A stretch of 64,000 nucleotides of DNA from Ignavibacteria bacterium (lineage in GTDB: Bacteria > Bacteroidota > Ignavibacteria > Tepidaquicellales > Tepidaquicellaceae): NCBI GenBank assembly GCA_028714695.1, contig JAQTLX010000006.1:62001-126000 (forward strand), read 5' to 3'. Under the pieces are notes generated by a model. The model did not search any database, was not told the origin of the DNA, and was given only the letters and a program-made list of their open reading frames with translations. The position numbers and the translations under genes were made by a program. Every line of letters begins with the position of its first letter. Within the stretch, counting starts at the first letter, position 1. Positions 53,178 through 62,547 of the stretch are shown piece by piece.

Positions 53178-56100
53178 ATGGATTCAAAAATAAAAATTCT
53201 GATAGTTGAAGACATTCCTGCAGATGCGGAAATATTAAGACACGAAATTACTAAAAGCGGAATTGAATTTGACTATAAACTTCTTGATACCGAAAAAGGA
53301 TTTGTAGATGCACTGAAGTCTTACAGCCCTGATATTATACTTTCCGATTATTCGCTTCCCGGTTTTGACGGCATGCAGGCTTTAAATATAAGAAATGAAA
53401 TATCTCCGTTCACACCTTTTATACTTGCAACAGGTTACACTAATGAAGAAATTGCCGTTGAATGCATGAAAATGGGCGCCGATGACTATATTCTAAAAGA
53501 TAACCTGACAAGGCTCGGGCAGGCAATAAAGTCTGCACTGGTAAAAAAGAATATCATCGAAGCAAGATACAGTGCGGAAGAAAAACTAAAAGAAAGTGAA
53601 ACGAAATTCAGACATATTTTTGAAAACTCCCCTATCGGAAAATCCATAACCGGTGTTGACGGCTCAATAGTGGTCAATAAAGCTCTCAAAGGAATGCTGG
53701 GATACGGCAATGATGATTTCATATATAAAGACTGGAAATCAATAACTTATCCCGATGATATACCGCGTTCACTGGAAGTGATGGAAGATTTATTAAATGA
53801 AAAAATCGACAGCGCACGAATTGAAAAAAGATTCCTTCATAAAGACGGAAGTATTGTCTGGGTGGAGTTGATGTCTGCACTGCAAAGAGATGCTGACGGA
53901 AACCCGAAATATTTTATTTCAAGTGTAAATAATATCACAGAACGGAAGAAATATGAAAAGGCATTAATTGAAAGCGAAACAAGATACAGGAGTTTTATTT
54001 CACAGGTCTCCGAAGGGGTTTATAGATTCGAACTTGATAAACCGATGCCTCTTGATTTACAGGTCGAAGAACAAATTGATTTTCTGTATGACCATGCTTT
54101 CATCGAAGAATGTAATTCTGCATTCATGAATATGTATGGAATTGAAAAAAAGGAGGATATCGTCGGAAAAAGCCAATTGGAATTGCACAAGGGAAGAGAT
54201 AATCCTCTTAACAGGGAAACATTGCGAGAATTCATAAAATCGGGCTACAAAATCGAAAGCAATATTACCGAAGAAACAAATGCCGGCGGTCAGGTAAAAT
54301 TTTTCAGTAATAATGCTCTTGGAATTATTGAGAATGATTTTCTAGTCAGGATATGGGGAACGCAAACCGATATAACAAATCAGGTCAGCGCCGAAAAAGC
54401 ATTAAAAAAATCTGAACTTGAATACAGGAATCTGTTCGAAAGCGCTAATGACGCGATAATAATATTTGAACCCGTATCTGAGATTATTCTTGAAGTGAAT
54501 AAAAAAGCATGCGATATTTACGGATATACCAAGGAAGAATTCACTAAAATCAGCCTGAAACAAATGTCCGTCAATGTCGAACGCGGAGAAAAGTATATTT
54601 TGGAAACGATTAAGGATGGCAGCAAGAAAGACTATGATACGCGGCATTATACGAAACAAGGAAAGGTACTTAATATATTAAGCAATGCATCCGTAATTGA
54701 ATATCACGGGCAGACTGCCATACTTTCAATAAACAGGGACATCACGGAGAAAAAGAAGGCTGAAGAAAGACTTCAGCAGAGCGAAGAGCGTTTTCAACTC
54801 GCCTCTCTTGCAACTAATGACGTCATTTACGACTGGGATCTGTTAAAAAATACAGGCTGGTTCAGCGAATCATTTAAAAGATTATTCGGTTACGATAATT
54901 CTATGGTATTGTTCGATGACTGGGAAAAAATGATTCACCCTGACGATGTAGTAAAAGCAATGGCTTATACTGATTCCATCATAAAAGGGGGCGGAAACTC
55001 ATGGCGGCTCGAATACCGTCTGAAAAGAAAAAACAAAACTTATGCCTACGTTATGGATTCAGGTTATATCGTTCGAAATGAAAACGGAGAACCCGTCAGG
55101 TTCATCGGCTCACTTATGGATTTTTCTGAACGCAAAATATCTGAGGAAGCGCTGAGGTACAGCGAGTCAAGATTCAGGAAGATATTTGAAGAAAGTCCCT
55201 TCGCAATTGCTCTTGTCAATATTGACTTTGGTTTTGAAAAAGTCAATCCCGAATTCTGCAAAATGATGGGATACAGCGAAGAAGACCTCAAGACTCTGAC
55301 ATTCAAAGAAATAACACATCCCGAATATCTTGAGCACGATTTATTCAATATAAGCCTGCTCTTAAAAGATGAAATTCCTATTTATCTCACGGAAAAGAAA
55401 TATCTCACAAAGGAAAATAAAATACGCTGGGGCGAAGTCCGCGTTTCGGTTATCAGGAATAATACGGGGAATTTTCAGTATTTTCTTGTGATGATTGAAG
55501 ATATTACCGACAAAAAACGAGCGGAAGAATCTGTGAGGGAAAGCGAAGAACATTTCAGGAATATTGTAAAAGGCGCCGAGGCAGCATACTTCAGAATTAA
55601 TACATCGGGTATTTATGAAGAAGTAAATGATTCATGGCTGCGAATTCACAAATACGAATCCCGCCGCGATATAATCGGGAAACACTTCAGCATAAATGTG
55701 GAGAAAATATATTCCGAAAGGGCGGAAGAAATTGTCAAAGAATTACTTAAAGGCAAACCCATTGAAACAGGCGAATTCAGCAGACTTTGCAAAGACGGCT
55801 CAATTGGTTATGAAACATTTTCGCTAAACCCGGTGATTAAAAACGGAAAGATAGCCGCGATTGAAGGTTTTCTTATTGATATTACCGAACAAAAAAATGC
55901 ACTTGAAGAATTAAATGAAAGCAGAGAAAGATACAGGATTCTTATTGAGAACATGAAAGAAGGAGTCGTGTACGTTGACAACAATGACGTAATTCAGTTT
56001 ATGAATAAATCAGGGAGCAATATTTACGGTTACGAACCGGAGGAGGTAATAGGAAAAGTCGGATACGCTGTTATGATTCATCCCGGCGACATAAATATTA

Positions 56101-58175
56101 TTCTCGAAAAGAATAAAAGCAGAATCGAGGGAAAATCGGATTCATACGAAATAAGAGGACTTAAGAAAAATAGAGAAATCGTTTGGCTGAGAATCAGCGG
56201 CTCTCCGGTTAAAAATAAAAGCGGTCAGGTTGTAGGTTCTGTAGGCATATTAACCGATATCACGGAACGTAAACTTACGGAAGAAGCGCTGAAAAAAAGC
56301 GAAGAACAATACCGGGAACTTGTCACTCAAATGACAGACGGAGTATACCAGAGTACACCCGAAGGAAAGTTTATCAGCATTAATAATGCAATGGTAAAAA
56401 TGTTCGGGTATGATTCTCAGGAAGATATGATGAAAATTGATATTCAACATGATTTATATTATAATATTGACGACAGATATCAGCCTTATCCCACAGACGG
56501 AGAAGAACATTTATTGAATCTGCGCCTGAAGAAAAAAGACGGAACGCCGATTTGGGTTGAAGAAAGCGGCTGGTATATTAAAGATATTGACGGCAATATA
56601 ATCCGGCACGAAGGAATTCTCAGGGATATAACTCAAAGAAAACTCGCGGAGGATACAATCAAAACACTTTCAAGCGCTCTCGAACAAAGTTCAACTTCCA
56701 TTATTATTACCGATTTGGACGGCTATATGGAATACGTAAATCCGAGAGTCGTAAACACGACAGGTTACAGTTATGAAGAATTGATTGGCACACATTCCCG
56801 CACACTGAGTTCAGATGAATTTATATCAGAACATATGGATAGTCTAATGCAAAAATTATACGCAGGTCTCGAATGGAAAGGAGAAGTGCCAAACAAAAGG
56901 AAAAACGGCGAACTCTTCTGGGAATCCGTTTCCATATCCCCCATCCGGAATACTGAAGGTAAGATTACAAATTATATCATTGTGGCGGAAGACATTACGG
57001 AAAAAAAAGAAAAAGAGAAAGAACTCATAAAGGCAAAAGAAAAAGCCGAAGAATCGGAAAAATTAAAATCTCATTTCCTCGCAAATATGAGCCACGAACT
57101 TAGAACGCCAATGGTCGGAATTCTCGGTTTCTCCGAAATACTTATGAACGATATTAAAGATGAATCGCAAAACGACATGATGAGCAAAATTCACAGAAGC
57201 GGACAACGGCTGATGAGCACGCTTAACCTTATACTGGATTTATCCAGAATAGAAGCGGGTAAACTCGATATGGATTCAAAAGAATTTTATATCTCTGAAT
57301 CAATTAAAGAAACAATTGACCTCTTCGAAAAAACCGCCATGCAAAAAAATCTTTTTATAAAATTTGAGAATAATATAAAGGACCTTTTGATTGTTCAGGA
57401 TGAAAGAATAATAAGAGACGTACTGAATAATTTAATTAATAACGCCGTCAAATACACAAATAAAGGCGGCATATATATCACCGCCGACGCTGTCAAAGAG
57501 GCAGACATCAAATACTGCGTCATTTCCGTTAAAGATACGGGAATAGGTATACCGGAGGATAAACTTGGTATTATTTTCGAAGAATTCAGACAGGTCAGCG
57601 AAGGAATAAGCAGGAAATTTGAAGGAACAGGTCTGGGATTAAGCATTACAAAAAAATTCGTGGAAAAAATGAATGGAATTATTACGGTTGAAAGCGTAAA
57701 AGGCAAGGGTTCGGTATTCACGGTTAAAATTCCTGTACTAAACAGTATTGCATCTAAAATTATCAAACCTGAAAAAGTCGTATTAACCGGCGAAACGGAA
57801 AGTACAACGAAGAAATTATCCGTTTTGGTCGTTGATGATGATGAGAGCACAACACTTCTGTGCGATATGTATTTGAAAAATAATTTCATCGTTGAGACAT
57901 CTTCTACAGCCGATGAAGCAATGGAACTCATTTCGAAGAAAAAATACGACCTCATTCTGATGGATATTAATCTCGGTAAAGGCAAGAACGGAATTGAATT
58001 GACCGCTGATATAAAAAAACTAAAAGGGTATGAAAAAATTCCGATTATTGCTCTTACCGCTTATGCTATGAAAGGCGACAGAGAGGAATTCATAAAAGCC
58101 GGATGTGCAGACTATATTTCAAAGCCGTTCCGAAAAGAGGTATTTATTAAGGTTATTAATAGAGCTATCGCCTGA
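53178..58175 (+). CDS. Giant hybrid histidine kinase, REC-PASx9-HisKA-HATPase-REC
   Basis: The 1665-residue protein has no membrane segment. A receiver domain (1-120; Asp in ILSDYSLPG) opens it, and about nine PAS/PAC units (140-1285) follow, each ending in a DITE/DITD-type motif. HisKA comes next with the phosphoacceptor His1306 in NMSHELRTPM, then HATPase (1400-1520; NLINNAVKY, DTGIGIP, GTGLGLSI) and a C-terminal receiver (1545-1665; LVVDDDE, LMDINLG, ALTAYAM, SKPF). This layout allows input from another kinase through the N-terminal receiver and phosphorelay through the C-terminal one. A strong terminator follows. Confidence 0.94.
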   Translation: MDSKIKILIVEDIPADAEILRHEITKSGIEFDYKLLDTEKGFVDALKSYSPDIILSDYSLPGFDGMQALNIRNEISPFTPFILATGYTNEEIAVECMKMGADDYILKDNLTRLGQAIKSALVKKNIIEARYSAEEKLKESETKFRHIFENSPIGKSITGVDGSIVVNKALKGMLGYGNDDFIYKDWKSITYPDDIPRSLEVMEDLLNEKIDSARIEKRFLHKDGSIVWVELMSALQRDADGNPKYFISSVNNITERKKYEKALIESETRYRSFISQVSEGVYRFELDKPMPLDLQVEEQIDFLYDHAFIEECNSAFMNMYGIEKKEDIVGKSQLELHKGRDNPLNRETLREFIKSGYKIESNITEETNAGGQVKFFSNNALGIIENDFLVRIWGTQTDITNQVSAEKALKKSELEYRNLFESANDAIIIFEPVSEIILEVNKKACDIYGYTKEEFTKISLKQMSVNVERGEKYILETIKDGSKKDYDTRHYTKQGKVLNILSNASVIEYHGQTAILSINRDITEKKKAEERLQQSEERFQLASLATNDVIYDWDLLKNTGWFSESFKRLFGYDNSMVLFDDWEKMIHPDDVVKAMAYTDSIIKGGGNSWRLEYRLKRKNKTYAYVMDSGYIVRNENGEPVRFIGSLMDFSERKISEEALRYSESRFRKIFEESPFAIALVNIDFGFEKVNPEFCKMMGYSEEDLKTLTFKEITHPEYLEHDLFNISLLLKDEIPIYLTEKKYLTKENKIRWGEVRVSVIRNNTGNFQYFLVMIEDITDKKRAEESVRESEEHFRNIVKGAEAAYFRINTSGIYEEVNDSWLRIHKYESRRDIIGKHFSINVEKIYSERAEEIVKELLKGKPIETGEFSRLCKDGSIGYETFSLNPVIKNGKIAAIEGFLIDITEQKNALEELNESRERYRILIENMKEGVVYVDNNDVIQFMNKSGSNIYGYEPEEVIGKVGYAVMIHPGDINIILEKNKSRIEGKSDSYEIRGLKKNREIVWLRISGSPVKNKSGQVVGSVGILTDITERKLTEEALKKSEEQYRELVTQMTDGVYQSTPEGKFISINNAMVKMFGYDSQEDMMKIDIQHDLYYNIDDRYQPYPTDGEEHLLNLRLKKKDGTPIWVEESGWYIKDIDGNIIRHEGILRDITQRKLAEDTIKTLSSALEQSSTSIIITDLDGYMEYVNPRVVNTTGYSYEELIGTHSRTLSSDEFISEHMDSLMQKLYAGLEWKGEVPNKRKNGELFWESVSISPIRNTEGKITNYIIVAEDITEKKEKEKELIKAKEKAEESEKLKSHFLANMSHELRTPMVGILGFSEILMNDIKDESQNDMMSKIHRSGQRLMSTLNLILDLSRIEAGKLDMDSKEFYISESIKETIDLFEKTAMQKNLFIKFENNIKDLLIVQDERIIRDVLNNLINNAVKYTNKGGIYITADAVKEADIKYCVISVKDTGIGIPEDKLGIIFEEFRQVSEGISRKFEGTGLGLSITKKFVEKMNGIITVESVKGKGSVFTVKIPVLNSIASKIIKPEKVVLTGETESTTKKLSVLVVDDDESTTLLCDMYLKNNFIVETSSTADEAMELISKKKYDLILMDINLGKGKNGIELTADIKKLKGYEKIPIIALTAYAMKGDREEFIKAGCADYISKPFRKEVFIKVINRAIA

Positions 58176-58960: not shown

Positions 58961-59157
58961 GGCAAATGGATTAATTTGAATAAAATATTTTTTTAATATT
59001 ACAAAAACAGCAGTTTACAAAAAGCCTTTTCATTTTGCACAACTATATGCAGTATGCATTTCAACAAATAATAATGAATTTGAAAGATAATTGGAACGTA
59101 ATTAATGGAATACCGGAATGAATAAATACTATAATCCGGAAACGAATTAACGGAATA

Positions 59158-59529
59158 TTATTTCATCAGCCATTCTATAGCCTCATCCCTGTCCTGAAAA
59201 ACACGCACATTAAAGCCAAGGTTATTTGATACTGTCTTCCAGAAATCGACTTTATCATGCTGAATACTCAGCGCGGGTAATATTATTGCCTCTTTTAGGT
59301 TTTTGGATAATCCTGAAGAAAAAAGTTCATTCGCCTTTTCGTAAAGGTCAAACAATGAATGTCCGCCTTCAAGACAAGAACAATCGGAAAGAAACTTCGT
59401 TGCATTCATTTTTTGCGATTCGGCAATTGCGGATTCTATGGCGGCAAATAATTCCTGCTTTTTCATGTAACCGGAAAAGATTGTTTCAATAATTTGTAAA
59501 TCCTCAAGGTATTTTACCTGCCATGCCAT
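59158..59529 (-). CDS. STAS/SpoIIAA-like small protein
   Basis: A 123-residue cytosolic protein with alternating strands and helices in the SpoIIAA-like pattern: an opening strand VKYLEDLQIIETIFSGYM, a helix with AAIESAIAESQKM, a strand TKFLSDCSCLEGG and a final NVRVFQDRDEAIEWLMK, which is the classic end of such domains. It has no kinase partner nearby. Function unknown. Confidence 0.75.
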   Translation of the reverse strand: MAWQVKYLEDLQIIETIFSGYMKKQELFAAIESAIAESQKMNATKFLSDCSCLEGGHSLFDLYEKANELFSSGLSKNLKEAIILPALSIQHDKVDFWKTVSNNLGFNVRVFQDRDEAIEWLMK

Positions 59530-59875
59530 AATCGGAAAATAAATTAATTTTAAAATAAGATAATAATTAAAACACTTTTTACGATTACAAAAATAGGATA
59601 AAATTCTTTTTTTTTCTACATAAAAATACGGAGAACCGATTATTCGTATCCTGCAACTCTCTCCTGTTTATCCCCGGAATCAATCTTTTCAATGAATTCA
59701 TCAATGCTTCCTTTTTATGTCTAAAATATTATCGGGTTATTAAGTCATATTTTTCTATCACACAATAAAACATATTTGTATTTTTACTTTGGAATGGATT
59801 TCGCTGTATTGTGTGCGTTATCGCACTTATCTGTTTTCTTATACCTGCATTAATTTATTAAATAACTTCATTTTA
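59530..59875. other. Intergenic region with a possible gene remnant
   Basis: A 346-bp gap. On the minus strand, bases 59710-59639 read GSIDEFIEKIDSGDKQERV and then AGYE and a stop, but a stop sits just upstream and no start is available, so this may be the tail of a lost gene. Nothing else was seen. Confidence 0.4.
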
Positions 59876-60274
59876 CTATTCCGGAACATCAATACTTACG
59901 ATTTTCCAAGATGTCATTTTCGAATCAACAAACCCGGTAACGAAAGTAGTGGAATATTTCTCATTATCCCTGTTCCATATAAAACTAATTCTTAACACTT
60001 TATCTTCGTCAGCCGATGATAATATTTTGTAATATTTGTCGCCGTCTGCTGTCACCGTCATTAAGATATCTGCATCGCCGGTCGAACCCTTATGCACGCC
60101 GACGACTTTTCCGCTGAAACAATATCCGTAGCCAATGGCGCCGCTCTCCGTGAATCCGCTCTTGAAAATATTTTTCCCCTCCTCCCCCGCATGATATAAA
60201 AAAGTTTTTCTCAGTGCAACTCTGTTCCTCCTGAGTTTGTCCGCCGTGGCGAAGGTCCGCCGTGGCGAGGACAT
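59876..60274 (-). CDS. Hypothetical protein whose N-terminus is repeat-derived
   Basis: The 132-residue frame is chimeric. Codons for about the first 43 residues (60274-60148) are made of the interspersed repeat that fills 60148-61180, whereas the rest (GYGYCFSGKVVGVHKG ... SWKIVSIDVPE) reads like an ordinary beta-rich protein domain. I do not recognise the domain. Either a repeat inserted into and replaced the true 5' end, leaving a truncated gene, or translation starts inside at a codon I cannot identify. Treat the start as unreliable. Confidence 0.5.
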   Translation of the reverse strand: MSSPRRTFATADKLRRNRVALRKTFLYHAGEEGKNIFKSGFTESGAIGYGYCFSGKVVGVHKGSTGDADILMTVTADGDKYYKILSSADEDKVLRISFIWNRDNEKYSTTFVTGFVDSKMTSWKIVSIDVPE

Positions 60275-61180
60275 ATAGTATCTTTATGTTTGTGTAATTC
60301 GTGAAAGTTCTCTTGTCAACCCTCCGCCTCGGCGGATTCTTGAACGGGGACCGTGGCAGAAAGTTTTTGCTCTTATATTTTTCCGTTCTTTCCCGCGGGC
60401 TATAAAAAAGTTCTTCTCACTGTCCGGTGCCTGTCCGCCAGCCGCAGGCTCGCCGTGGCGAGGCGAGGATATATAATATTTTTCTTTAATTAGTGAAATT
60501 CGTGTTAATCCGTGGCTGGCTCTTGCTCTTATATTTTTCCTCTCTTTCCCGCGGGATATAAAAAAGTTTTTCTCTGTGTGACTTTGTGACTGCTCCGTGT
60601 CCCTCTGTGAAATGCTCTTTTTTCTACTAAATTCTAACTTCTAGATTCTAACTTCTGCTCTTAGAATCCGTGGCTAATGTTCTTGCTCTTAATTTTATAA
60701 AAAACTTTGTGCCTTCTTTGTGATACTTTGTGAACCCGCTCTCAGACATATTTTTTCCGTTCTTTCCCGCGTGATATAAAAAATGTTTTTCTCTGTGTGA
60801 CTTTGTGACTGCTCCGTGTCCCTCTGTGAAATGCTCTTTTTTTCTACTAAATTCTAACTTCTAGATTCTAACTTCTGCTCTTAGAATCCGTGGCAGAAAG
60901 TTTTTGCTCTTATTTTTTCCCTCTCTTTCCCGCGGGCAATAAAAAAGTTTTTCTCTGTGTTCTCAGTGTCCTCAGTGGTGAAATGCTCTTAAAATCTGTG
61001 ATAATCTGTGGCGGGCTCTTGCTCTTATATTTTTCCTCTCTTTCCCGCGGGATATAAAAAAACTTTTATTCGTGATAATCCGTTTGAATTCTTTTTTAAT
61101 TCGTGTAATTCGTGAAAATCCGTGGCAGAAAGTTCTTGCTCTTAAATTAGATTTAATTCGCGTTAATTCGCGGCCTAAAT
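60148..61180. repeat. About 1 kb of nested interspersed repeats
   Basis: The core CCCGCGGGATATAAAAAAG occurs six times with variation (near 60186, 60391, 60548, 60766, 60929 and 61043), each preceded by a TTTTTCC pyrimidine tract. A 132/134-bp block is repeated almost exactly at 60543-60674 and 60761-60894. Between the cores are runs of the phrases TCTGTGTGACTTTGTGAC, TAATTCGTGAAAATCCGTGG and AATCTGTGATAATCTGTGG, which have an internal period of about 9-10 bases. No plausible gene lies inside. It separates the chimeric ORF from the next secreted-protein gene. Confidence 0.9.
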
Positions 61181-61247
61181 AAATCAACTACCCGGAACAA
61201 ATCCCCTATTCCGGCGTTTAAAAAGTAATTAAACCTGTACTATAACA

Positions 61248-61709
61248 ATGCTTAAACTAATATTACTCTTTCTATTCTTTCCCCTATCCGCATTCTGCCA
61301 AAACATAATCCCGCACGCAAGCATAACCGAAGAAAGCGATTATCTGACTTCATCCGATTACAGATTATTCAAAGCAACAATCAGCCCGGGCTATAAAGAC
61401 CACGGATACAGAATCGACATCTTAGAACCCGACGGCAAAATCTATTACAGCGCAGAGATAGGCGTGAACCTGATAGTTCACAAAAAGAATTACAAAATGC
61501 CGGACAGCAACAAAGAAGAATGGGATTATGAAACCGAAATCAAATCAAACGACATAATAAACGACGACACTATAAACGTTGCTGACTGCTCTAACACCAG
61601 ACACCTTTCCGTATATATACGCCTAAACAAATCCACCAAATACAAAATCAAAATTTACCACACGGAATATTCCTTATTTGAACATCTTTTAACGTATGAA
61701 GTGAAATGA
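61248..61709 (+). CDS. Small secreted protein, unknown
   Basis: Not recognised. The 153-residue product has a signal peptide (...PLSAFCQ) and a mature beta-rich domain with SDYRLFKATISPGY, IDILEPDGKIYYSAE and KYKIKIYHTEYSL segments. No cysteine pair or catalytic motif was seen apart from a single Cys near residue 115. It is flanked by repeats on the left and a convergent DUF2283 gene on the right. Confidence 0.72.
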   Translation: MLKLILLFLFFPLSAFCQNIIPHASITEESDYLTSSDYRLFKATISPGYKDHGYRIDILEPDGKIYYSAEIGVNLIVHKKNYKMPDSNKEEWDYETEIKSNDIINDDTINVADCSNTRHLSVYIRLNKSTKYKIKIYHTEYSLFEHLLTYEVK

Positions 61710-61811
61710 GGTATATTAAATAATGGAAAATTTTAAATATGCATGATATCGAAATTATCTCAGACAGGTAAAGTTAAATTAAGAAAGGGCTCATTTATAA
61801 TAATTTGCGTA

Positions 61812-62051
61812 TTATTTTACATGATAAGTCATTTTGTCAATAAAGTTAGATGGATATAAATAAGATCTTTTGTATTTAATACCTAACTGTTCAAGTGGAT
61901 TTAGAAGTTCAATCCCGACTATTTCGCCGTCAGCATTCACATCAACAATAATATCGTCATCGATTTCAATTGTTTTCTCAATCTTTGTCTTCTTAACATC
62001 GGTTTTTAAGTAACCTATATTCTTTTCGATATTTAATTTTAAGTTTTTCAT
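61812..62051 (-). CDS. DUF2283 family small protein
   Basis: The 79-residue protein has the DUF2283 pattern: IGYLKTDVKKT, then IEIDDDIIVDVNADGEIVGIELLNP (outline), where the acidic DDIIVDVN strand and the GEIVGIELL strand are the hallmark. DUF2283 genes often follow DUF4258-type genes and are suspected toxin-antitoxin partners; that is family-level knowledge and not shown here. Eleven bases upstream ends the degenerate heptad-repeat reading frame at 62063-62278, which may be the remnant of its former partner. Confidence 0.85.
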   Translation of the reverse strand: MKNLKLNIEKNIGYLKTDVKKTKIEKTIEIDDDIIVDVNADGEIVGIELLNPLEQLGIKYKRSYLYPSNFIDKMTYHVK

Positions 62052-62062
62052 CTTATTGTAAG

Positions 62063-62278
62063 TTAACTAAATTTTGCTAAAACAGAAATGACATCGTTAT
62101 AATGTTTGCTCTGCTGGAATTTTAAAACTACTTCTTTGGCAGTAAATCCGATATATTCTGCTGTACGCTCGAAACTTTCGGCGATACATCCGAAACATTC
62201 GGCGGCAAATCCAAAACTTTCAGTGGCATACCTGAAACATTCAGCGGTACAGTGGAAGTATTCAGGGGAATATCTGAA
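62063..62278 (-). pseudogene. Decayed heptad-repeat protein gene upstream of DUF2283
   Basis: On the minus strand one frame is open for 71 codons without any start codon. It encodes heptads of the form F-x-x-x-A/P-E-x (for example YSPEYF, CTAECF, YATESF, FAAECF), followed by a non-repeat tail TAKEVVLKFQQSKHYNDV ... AKFS and a stop just before the DUF2283 ATG. Further upstream the same heptads continue (GYSPESR, GYSPECF) but in a shifted frame, because one 21-bp unit is only 20 bases long, and stops interrupt. This reads as a broken coding sequence that once extended through the whole repeat array. Confidence 0.6.
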
Positions 62279-62462
62279 TCATCAGACGTTTACCCAAACA
62301 CCGCAGATAATTGAACGGAGTTCACATAGGAATATCCGAAACACTCAGGGGAATATCCGCGACTCTCGGGGGAATATCCGGCATACTGGATGTTTATCTG
62401 AAACTCCCGACGGTTTACTCAAGACCTCCGTCGGTACAGCGGATATGCTCGGATGTGAATGA
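62150..62462. repeat. Fifteen imperfect 21-bp tandem repeats
   Basis: Units follow GAAACNTTCGGCGGNANATCC with drift; thirteen are 21 bases long and two (62276-62295, 62380-62399) are 20. The period gives seven-residue repeats in any frame; the minus-strand frame described in the pseudogene entry is the most protein-like. Confidence 0.88.
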
Positions 62463-62547
62463 AATTTTAAGAAAAGTGGGAAAATGAAAAAAAAACGACG
62501 GGTTCTCAAATTTTTGTCATCGATTTAACAATTTAGGAGGATAATTT

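Follow-up and report, generated by a model that had tools for sequence, protein, structure and literature searches.

A gene-less block of short repeat words in an Ignavibacteria genome and related arrays at the ends of GxxExxY genes

The word block and its neighbouring genes

The window, meaning the whole stretch of 64,000 nucleotides that was analysed, contains between two divergent genes a block of repeated 9-10-bp words. The parts of the block and the two neighbouring reading frames are as follows (coordinates, strand, description, source of the assignment).

60148-61180, no strand: whole block, gene-less word arrays (word, core and repeat analyses)
59876-60274, minus: left neighbour ORF (ORF list, homologue alignment)
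61248-61709, plus: right neighbour ORF, divergent to the left one (ORF list)
60183-60202, plus: core copy 1, four mismatches (core search)
60389-60408, plus: core copy 2, one mismatch (core search)
60545-60564, plus: core copy 3, exact (core search)
60763-60782, plus: core copy 4, one mismatch (core search)
60926-60945, plus: core copy 5, two mismatches (core search)
61041-61060, plus: core copy 6, exact (core search)
60489-60515, plus: three-word chain with GTGG end (word consensus)
60572-60609, plus: four-word chain (word consensus)
60705-60732, plus: three-word chain, CTTTGTG (word consensus)
60791-60828, plus: four-word chain, duplicate of 60572-60609 (word consensus, duplication)
60953-60978, plus: three-word chain with GTGG end (word consensus)
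60994-61011, plus: two-word chain with GTGG end (word consensus)
61099-61125, plus: three-word chain with GTGG end (word consensus)
61156-61173, plus: two-word chain (ATTCGCG) with GCGG end (word consensus)
60627-60656, plus: period-7 tract (TTCTAAC/TTCTAGA), S23-type word class (tandem periodicity)
60847-60876, plus: second period-7 tract, inside the duplication (tandem periodicity)
60534-60690, plus: duplication, left copy (self-alignment)
60752-60911, plus: duplication, right copy (self-alignment)
60234-60270, plus: nested GTCCGCCGTGGCGA(A/G)G-type repeat (family D11; GTCCGCCGTGGCGAG-type), two overlapping copies
60443-60463: third copy of the D11 repeat (family D11)

The original prediction of six cores at a spacing of 110-220 bp was borne out; the six copies lie 206, 156, 218, 163 and 115 bp apart and differ from the core by 0-4 mismatches. 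A search of the whole 64 kb with up to five mismatches gave one further match, with exactly five, on the minus strand. The left-hand core (CCCGCGGGATATAAAAA) is explained only through its likeness to a terminal word. The near-exact duplication, previously put at 132/134 bp, is real and measures 157/160 bp; pieces of 64 nt (98%) and 57 nt (100%) within it align without gaps. The block also has a second periodicity that had not been named before, namely the two period-7 tracts.

On the plus strand of the block, GTG occurs 36 times and CAC once (expectation from the rest of the window, 5.6), and 16 of the 35 distances between successive GTGs measure 9, 10 or 11 bp. The words end in GTG or GCG, many follow each other at 9-11-bp steps, and several chains close with one more G (GTGG). 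The runs of 9-10-bp phrases described earlier could be reduced to a single consensus on a single strand: between 60001 and 61300 there are 31 words on the plus strand and none in the opposite orientation, CACAAAG (5 of 31) being among the three commonest. Using the consensus CRCNRAK (C[AG]CN[AG]A[GT]), which was derived later than the initial core and GTG counts, 16 word pairs at 8-11 bp were counted in the block and 3 in 60 kb of the remaining sequence. The reversed word gave no pair in either, and four permuted words gave 0-2 pairs in the block and 1-2 in the rest.

No match at the Rfam gathering score was obtained in 59000-62500, and a known RNA family was rejected as an explanation of the block on this count. 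A CRISPR array, judged by repeat layout, was likewise rejected, with core spacings of 115-218 bp and intervening DNA that is related, not unique.

The block does not lie wholly outside reading frames: at its left edge, the minus-strand ORF 59876-60274 reaches into it, and the first residues of this ORF are encoded by the array. The homologue in the related genome G011 aligns only from residue 42, and that in G009 from residue 17. G011 has the same divergent gene pair with about 105 bp between the starts (read from the sequence) and no array; hence, the array entered or replaced the intergenic region of the pair, with an approximate border. About 1 kb from its counterpart of this gene pair, G011 carries another tandem array (L115, 2690-3240) of ~110-bp units with the words ACGCTGAA and ACACAGAT. 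Near the word block, the window also holds an ORF (62106-62462) consisting mostly of 21-bp tandem repeats (three TRF rows, 62170-62380); it could represent a further class of repeat or encode a small repetitive protein. A further window ORF of 1665 residues (53178-58175) presumably encodes a many-domain sensor kinase with response-regulator ends.

Spread of the words within the genome and across bacterial groups

A search of the genome that contains the block gave 121 matches, the block itself counted among them. Twenty of these stretches were read in whole or in part; many share the cores, and they are built from the same words. They also hold tracts of 7-bp words (AGAATCT/AGGAGTT, AAAACTA, CATTTTC and AACTAAG/CACTAAT), and several of the 20 lie at contig ends, where many arrays sit generally. 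In 19 such islands, 118 word pairs were counted; the reversed word gave 3, and four permuted words gave 0-6. CACGAAT is the commonest island word, followed by CGCAAAG and CACAAAG. Given the 121 matches and those in other groups, presence at this site only, an assembly error or artefact and a single local duplication, which the original prediction had left to a genome-wide count, are rejected.

The statement that similar phrases occur in unrelated phyla is supported. The exact three-word pattern was found in 85 contig stretches of the species-level genome collection, representing at least nine phyla by title, whereas about 0.06 would be expected by chance (a hand estimate with equal base frequencies). 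Titles are known for 80 of the 85 stretches, and 23 of these 80 belong to one Anaerolineae MAG. By title, the groups include Chloroflexi, Ignavibacteriales, Bacteroidetes, Planctomycetes, Acidobacteria, Cloacimonadota, Desantisbacteria, Verrucomicrobia and Ratteibacteria. Since nearly all the records are MAGs, mis-binning is possible for some stretches; a record with the pattern that is not marked as a MAG is Flavobacterium sp. Leaf82 (L061). A Bacteroides finegoldii plasmid (L267) has the words at gene ends. With up to two mismatches, the pattern was found in 11 of 59 genomes (the genome of the window and its relatives) and the reversed pattern in none; the distribution is therefore patchy even inside the family.

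The Anaerolineae MAG contains a repeated ~160-bp element (L029, L040-L042, L058, L078 and L100) with the outer ends GGGCGTATGCA / TGCGCCC. It encloses a hairpin of inverted words, which in several copies reads CACGAATTACACGAATTAACACGAA...TTCGTGTTAATTCGTGG; here, the words seem to have been turned into the middle of a MITE-like element. In addition, a published primer from a promoter region of Bacteroides fragilis (PMC3090145) reads as two such words ending in GTGG.

GxxExxY and S23 genes and their repeat arms

The idea that the words belong to a gene family started from L025, where a GxxExxY gene is flanked on either side by inverted word arrays. Two families are considered here, GxxExxY (PF13366/TIGR04256) and the S23 four-helix-bundle proteins (PF05635/TIGR02436); both are common small genes for which, to our knowledge, no role has been established. 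GxxExxY is present in 49 and S23 in 52 of the 59 own-group genomes, and in 3 and 0, respectively, of 14 well-known control genomes. The window contains neither gene. The earlier statement that the block has no gene is thus correct for the window, but elsewhere such arrays bracket one gene family.

Word pairs (C[AG]CN[AG]A[GT] at 8-11 bp) were counted in the 150 bp before the start and the 150 bp after the stop of each gene. Exact duplicates (L025/L149 and L183/L239) were taken out before the counts of 70 and 76 GxxExxY and of 51 S23 genes. Among all 77 GxxExxY genes, the words stand upstream of 42, inverted downstream of 48 and on both sides of 35. For the 70 genes not chosen by array, the numbers are 37 upstream, 41 downstream, 30 on both sides and 48 on either side, with 6 upstream and 8 downstream pairs on the wrong strand; 22 of the 70 have no word pair by the strict rule. 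This count leaves out L031, L060, L097 and L108, which were found through the array scan, L202, beside which an array was known, and L025/L149, the locus behind the idea. A further 40 stretches with GxxExxY and 20 with S23 were hand-chosen from longer lists before their flanks were read, with the exception of L202. Where present, the words lie at a median of 16.5 bp before the start and 8 bp behind the stop.

Control gene ends (274, from array loci of other groups and from the window) have words upstream in 3 cases, downstream in 3 and on both sides in none, with 3 and 6 on the wrong strand. Two further controls were taken from the relatives. ParE genes have no words in either expected orientation (0/30; one wrong-strand pair, one period-7 tract), nor do the Y1 transposase genes (0/28; one period-7 tract; full flanks were lacking for 2 of 30). 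Inverted flanks of their own sequence were found at 17 of 28 Y1 and 0 of 30 ParE genes. Toxin-antitoxin genes as array partners were rejected on the ParE count. The reversed-word, permuted-word and control-gene counts rule out chance or composition as the source of the words, and the association of GxxExxY with the words, taken alone, is regarded as highly probable.

A replicate used 24 genomes reached via array loci; to judge by their titles, most belong to other phyla. GxxExxY is present in 19 and S23 in all 24. At 28 GxxExxY loci (2 of 30 lacked full flanks), words stand upstream in 14, downstream in 17, on both sides in 9 and on either side in 22, with 4 and 2 on the wrong strand; these genomes had been selected for TTCGTG arrays, and many of their gene arms use other words. 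Plasmids gave 8 GxxExxY records, all of which were read; the strict word rule holds for 2 and fails for 6. A Sphingomonas parapaucimobilis plasmid (L269) has a GxxExxY gene between fabD and fabG with words visible by eye, and the strict rule failed there. Phage records contain no GxxExxY match among 50,697; viral contigs yielded two GxxExxY loci, both with words on at least one side, and one stretch with the word pattern. Phage-borne spread was rejected on these counts.

The genome of the window has five GxxExxY genes, and the arms of the four that were read consist of CACAAAG, CGCAAAG, CACTAAG and CACTGAT. No cognate gene for CACGAAT, CACAGAG or CACGGAT was found among these four.

The S23 genes have a different word class. 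The 9-10-bp words were found upstream of 2 of 52 S23 genes, downstream of none and on both sides of none, while period-7 tracts stand upstream of 25, downstream of 28 and on either side of 34 of 51 S23 genes. At 76 GxxExxY genes, period-7 tracts were counted upstream in 0 and downstream in 3 cases, and in controls at 2-3%. In the replicate, 27 S23 loci (30 minus one without a location and two with incomplete flanks) gave words at 1, period 7 on either side at 13 and inverted arms at 17. Of nine plasmid S23 loci, taken from 41 records with a match, seven have period-7 ends, including 6 of 7 cyanobacterial ones; L265 failed for period 7 and has a strong other period, and L262 passes and has other periods as well. 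Some tracts are long and near-perfect (L259). On an Azospirillum plasmid (L275), an S23 gene bounded by inverted heptamers lies inside an apparent 23S rRNA gene, which we take it to be from reading the sequence. The S23 protein distantly resembles the retroelement protein Avd, below the cut-off of that model. In two cyanobacterial plasmid genera (the L259, L261, L264 set), S23 stands between cas6 and cas4 with period-7 flanks; in a third genus of this set it stands between cas10 and a cmr3-type gene, where the period-7 test failed.

GxxExxY is predicted to be a PD-(D/E)XK nuclease, about 120-140 residues long and weakly similar to Cas4. In 41 aligned, hand-chosen proteins, D71, E81 and K83, the expected PD-(D/E)XK active-site residues, are invariant (41/41), as are G29, E32, N112 and F113. 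All 41 match the PDDEXK_3 profile, and 19 of them also match the Cas4 profile weakly, with E values of at most 1 and a best value of 5.6e-4. A search of the PDB by sequence gave no relative, the lone match at E 0.51 not being evidence, and an AlphaFold2 model from three sequences had a mean pLDDT of 45, too low to be of use.

The two arms of a GxxExxY gene resemble each other. Word likeness between arms is 0.752, compared with 0.188 after permutation (maximum 0.433 of 5000; 30 loci), and the alignment of one arm to the inverted other exceeds the 95% level of mismatched pairs at 47 of 76 GxxExxY and 32 of 51 S23 loci. Words and proteins also covary (Mantel r 0.48, and 0.33 for pairs below 60% identity; 48 loci, with none of 5000 permutations reaching these values), which may be mere co-inheritance of gene and arms. 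A full element consists of words, a GxxExxY gene and words in inverse orientation; its outer ends are often CC on one side and GG on the other. In gene arms, a C precedes the outermost word in 47 of 88 cases versus 11 of 164 inner words; in the gene-less chains of the 19 islands and the window block, this is so for 72 of 92 versus 3 of 134, although the 92 chains are not independent, since the gene-less chains of one genome copy each other. Because the islands had been picked for their likeness to the block, independently of the end rule, the sharing of this rule is the best evidence that the gene-less arrays of the window are kin of the gene-bearing elements.

At two conserved loci, the gene and its inverted arms occur together as a single unit or are missing; the filled and empty sites were read at a resolution coarser than single bases. 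The first locus lies between two respiratory-chain genes, which we take from their sequences to be nuoE and nuoF. This gap was read in 28 of 29 family genomes and is filled in four (G000, G001, G003 and G004), with gene and inverted arms in gaps of 428-856 bp; in G001, the first arm is read as the end of the upstream gene. The remaining 24 gaps have no such gene and measure 3-60 bp, including that of G002 of the same genus, and G008 has a 39-bp scar of two words. At the second locus, in another genus, 12 of 13 genomes were read, four filled and eight without the gene; in G039, the element starts with CCGCC right after the stop codon and ends with GGCGG. The polymorphism that the original prediction had proposed to look for between strains is thus seen between species (4/28 and 4/12), although the pattern could reflect loss instead of insertion. 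No excision or circle was observed. The four nuo GxxExxY proteins form no single clade in a tree that is not firm, and they may stem either from a single insertion with word turnover or from repeated insertion.

Origin of the block and relation to known systems

The window block is at most a gene-less relative and not a full element, because it has no such ORF and its words are one-stranded. Our preferred interpretation, with a probability of about 0.6 that includes the mechanism, is that the block is a nest of gene-less terminal arms, the debris of tiny one-gene elements of the GxxExxY type, and that heptamers of the S23 type are nested within it. The nuclease would recognise its own word class, probably in a hairpin or single-stranded form, and would move or repair-copy the words, thereby spreading and homogenising arms with and without the gene, in a manner like that proposed for RAYT proteins and REPs; movement of the arrays by the protein is an inference. 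The arrays would grow via slippage and unequal exchange, giving the 110-220-bp and 160-bp order, and heptamers of the S23 type would insert into word islands; together, these processes would produce the order at three scales. Counting against this interpretation are the partial fit between the local words and the arms of the genome's own GxxExxY genes, the 22 of 70 genes without a word pair and the six plasmid records that fail the rule. A broader reading, in which many bacterial groups harbour two parallel transposase-free systems, the Cas4-like GxxExxY with 9-10-bp words and S23 with 7-bp words, each protein spreading and homogenising its own arrays, is put forward tentatively, the odds being somewhat against it.

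The elements might instead act at the level of RNA, like 23S rRNA intervening sequences (IVS): the arms would be transcribed with the host operon, RNase III would cut the stem, the small proteins would bind RNA, and spread would occur by rare recombination or reverse transcription and not by the protein. The S23 gene of L275 in its apparent 23S rRNA gene and the distant likeness of S23 to Avd agree with this, as does the Coxiella IVS, for which the available part of PMC4990558 gives excision from RNA by RNase III in vitro and tandem heptamers, two or three by strain, before the S23 ORF. Where the neighbours agree in direction, the gene follows them at 44 of 45 GxxExxY and 44 of 44 S23 loci; however, small controls lean the same way (Y1 5/6, ParE 8/10), GxxExxY keeps the residues of a DNA nuclease, and gene-less arrays also occur between divergent genes, as in the window. 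We consider an RNA-level origin unlikely, though deserving of serious attention. Ordinary slippage repeats spread by horizontal gene transfer, with the small genes as hitch-hikers inserting in repeats, would fit the strain differences in Coxiella heptamer number (PMC4990558, in the part available) and the long near-perfect tracts of L259. Slippage, however, predicts neither a consensus word, as seen in the 118 pairs in 19 islands with their reversed and permuted controls, nor inversion around one family, a special outer base or family-specific word classes, and such an origin appears improbable.

Arrays serving as operators, at which the small protein controls its own gene, would agree with the position of the upstream words so close to the start, but the inverted arms are equally frequent behind the stop and many arrays have no gene, so that we give this very little credence. 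Divergent REPs moved by Y1 (HUH) transposases seem hardly credible as the source of the arrays: Y1 genes do occur in 48 of the 59 genomes and often have inverted flanks, but none of the 28 tested has the words, and their flanks are other palindromes. The Y1 genes share the layout of gene plus inverted repeats with different sequences, as the REP/RAYT literature, in the parts available, leads one to expect. Several of them (L334, L336, L347, L354 and others) have inverted palindromes such as GACCCCGTAGGGGTCG and form a classic-looking REP/RAYT set.

The preferred reading, debris of GxxExxY-type elements, places the block close to several known systems. REP sequences and REPINs with their RAYT (Y1) transposases (PMC3116915, PMC3686654, PMC3733652), as far as the available text of these papers goes, likewise combine one small enzyme gene, inverted short repeats and many gene-less intergenic copies in the same genome; they differ in having an HUH enzyme instead of a predicted PD-(D/E)XK nuclease, and one palindrome instead of word arrays. 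The GxxExxY system is therefore REP/RAYT-like and not a member, as the tested Y1 partner had words at 0 of 28 genes. The 23S rRNA IVS with S23, called selfish in the available part of PMC4990558, is also a small element with inverted ends and one small gene. It belongs to the heptamer/S23 class, which was found here also between protein genes, on plasmids and in several groups, whereas the main words of the window go with GxxExxY. MITEs share the short, gene-less dispersed copies and the insertion polymorphism, but a DDE transposase partner and a target-site duplication were not identified here, and the ends are arrays of varying word number.

Cyanobacterial STRRs are a related class of short 7-bp repeats. 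The TAACTGA heptamers of Beggiatoaceae, cyanobacteria and Bacteroidetes (PMC4679880) are similarly short, intergenic and patchy across phyla; the text available from that study reports no evident transfer mechanism, suggests translational control and names neither S23 nor four-helix proteins, whereas here seven of nine plasmid S23 loci have period-7 ends. In the literature searched, mostly titles and abstracts, no paper linking dispersed word arrays to GxxExxY was found, and to that extent the tie is new. The only textual tie of either gene family to such arrays was that of the heptamers before the S23 ORF of one IVS (PMC4990558, in the part available); the GxxExxY passage seen in PMC8934634 is not about repeats.

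Each of the two small gene families thus has its own dispersed repeat class, which provides a testable partner for proteins and repeats alike. The link to S23 offers a possible route of spread for heptamers that lack an evident mechanism in the literature (PMC4679880, in its available part). If the two-system reading is true, the cyanobacterial heptamers, the TAACTGA repeats and the 23S rRNA intervening sequences would be faces of the S23 system, and many unexplained phrase repeats of environmental genomes would be faces of the GxxExxY system, each word array being a ladder of equal sites with the word set by its cognate protein. With the two gene families, a puzzling class of scattered repeats gains candidate partner proteins.
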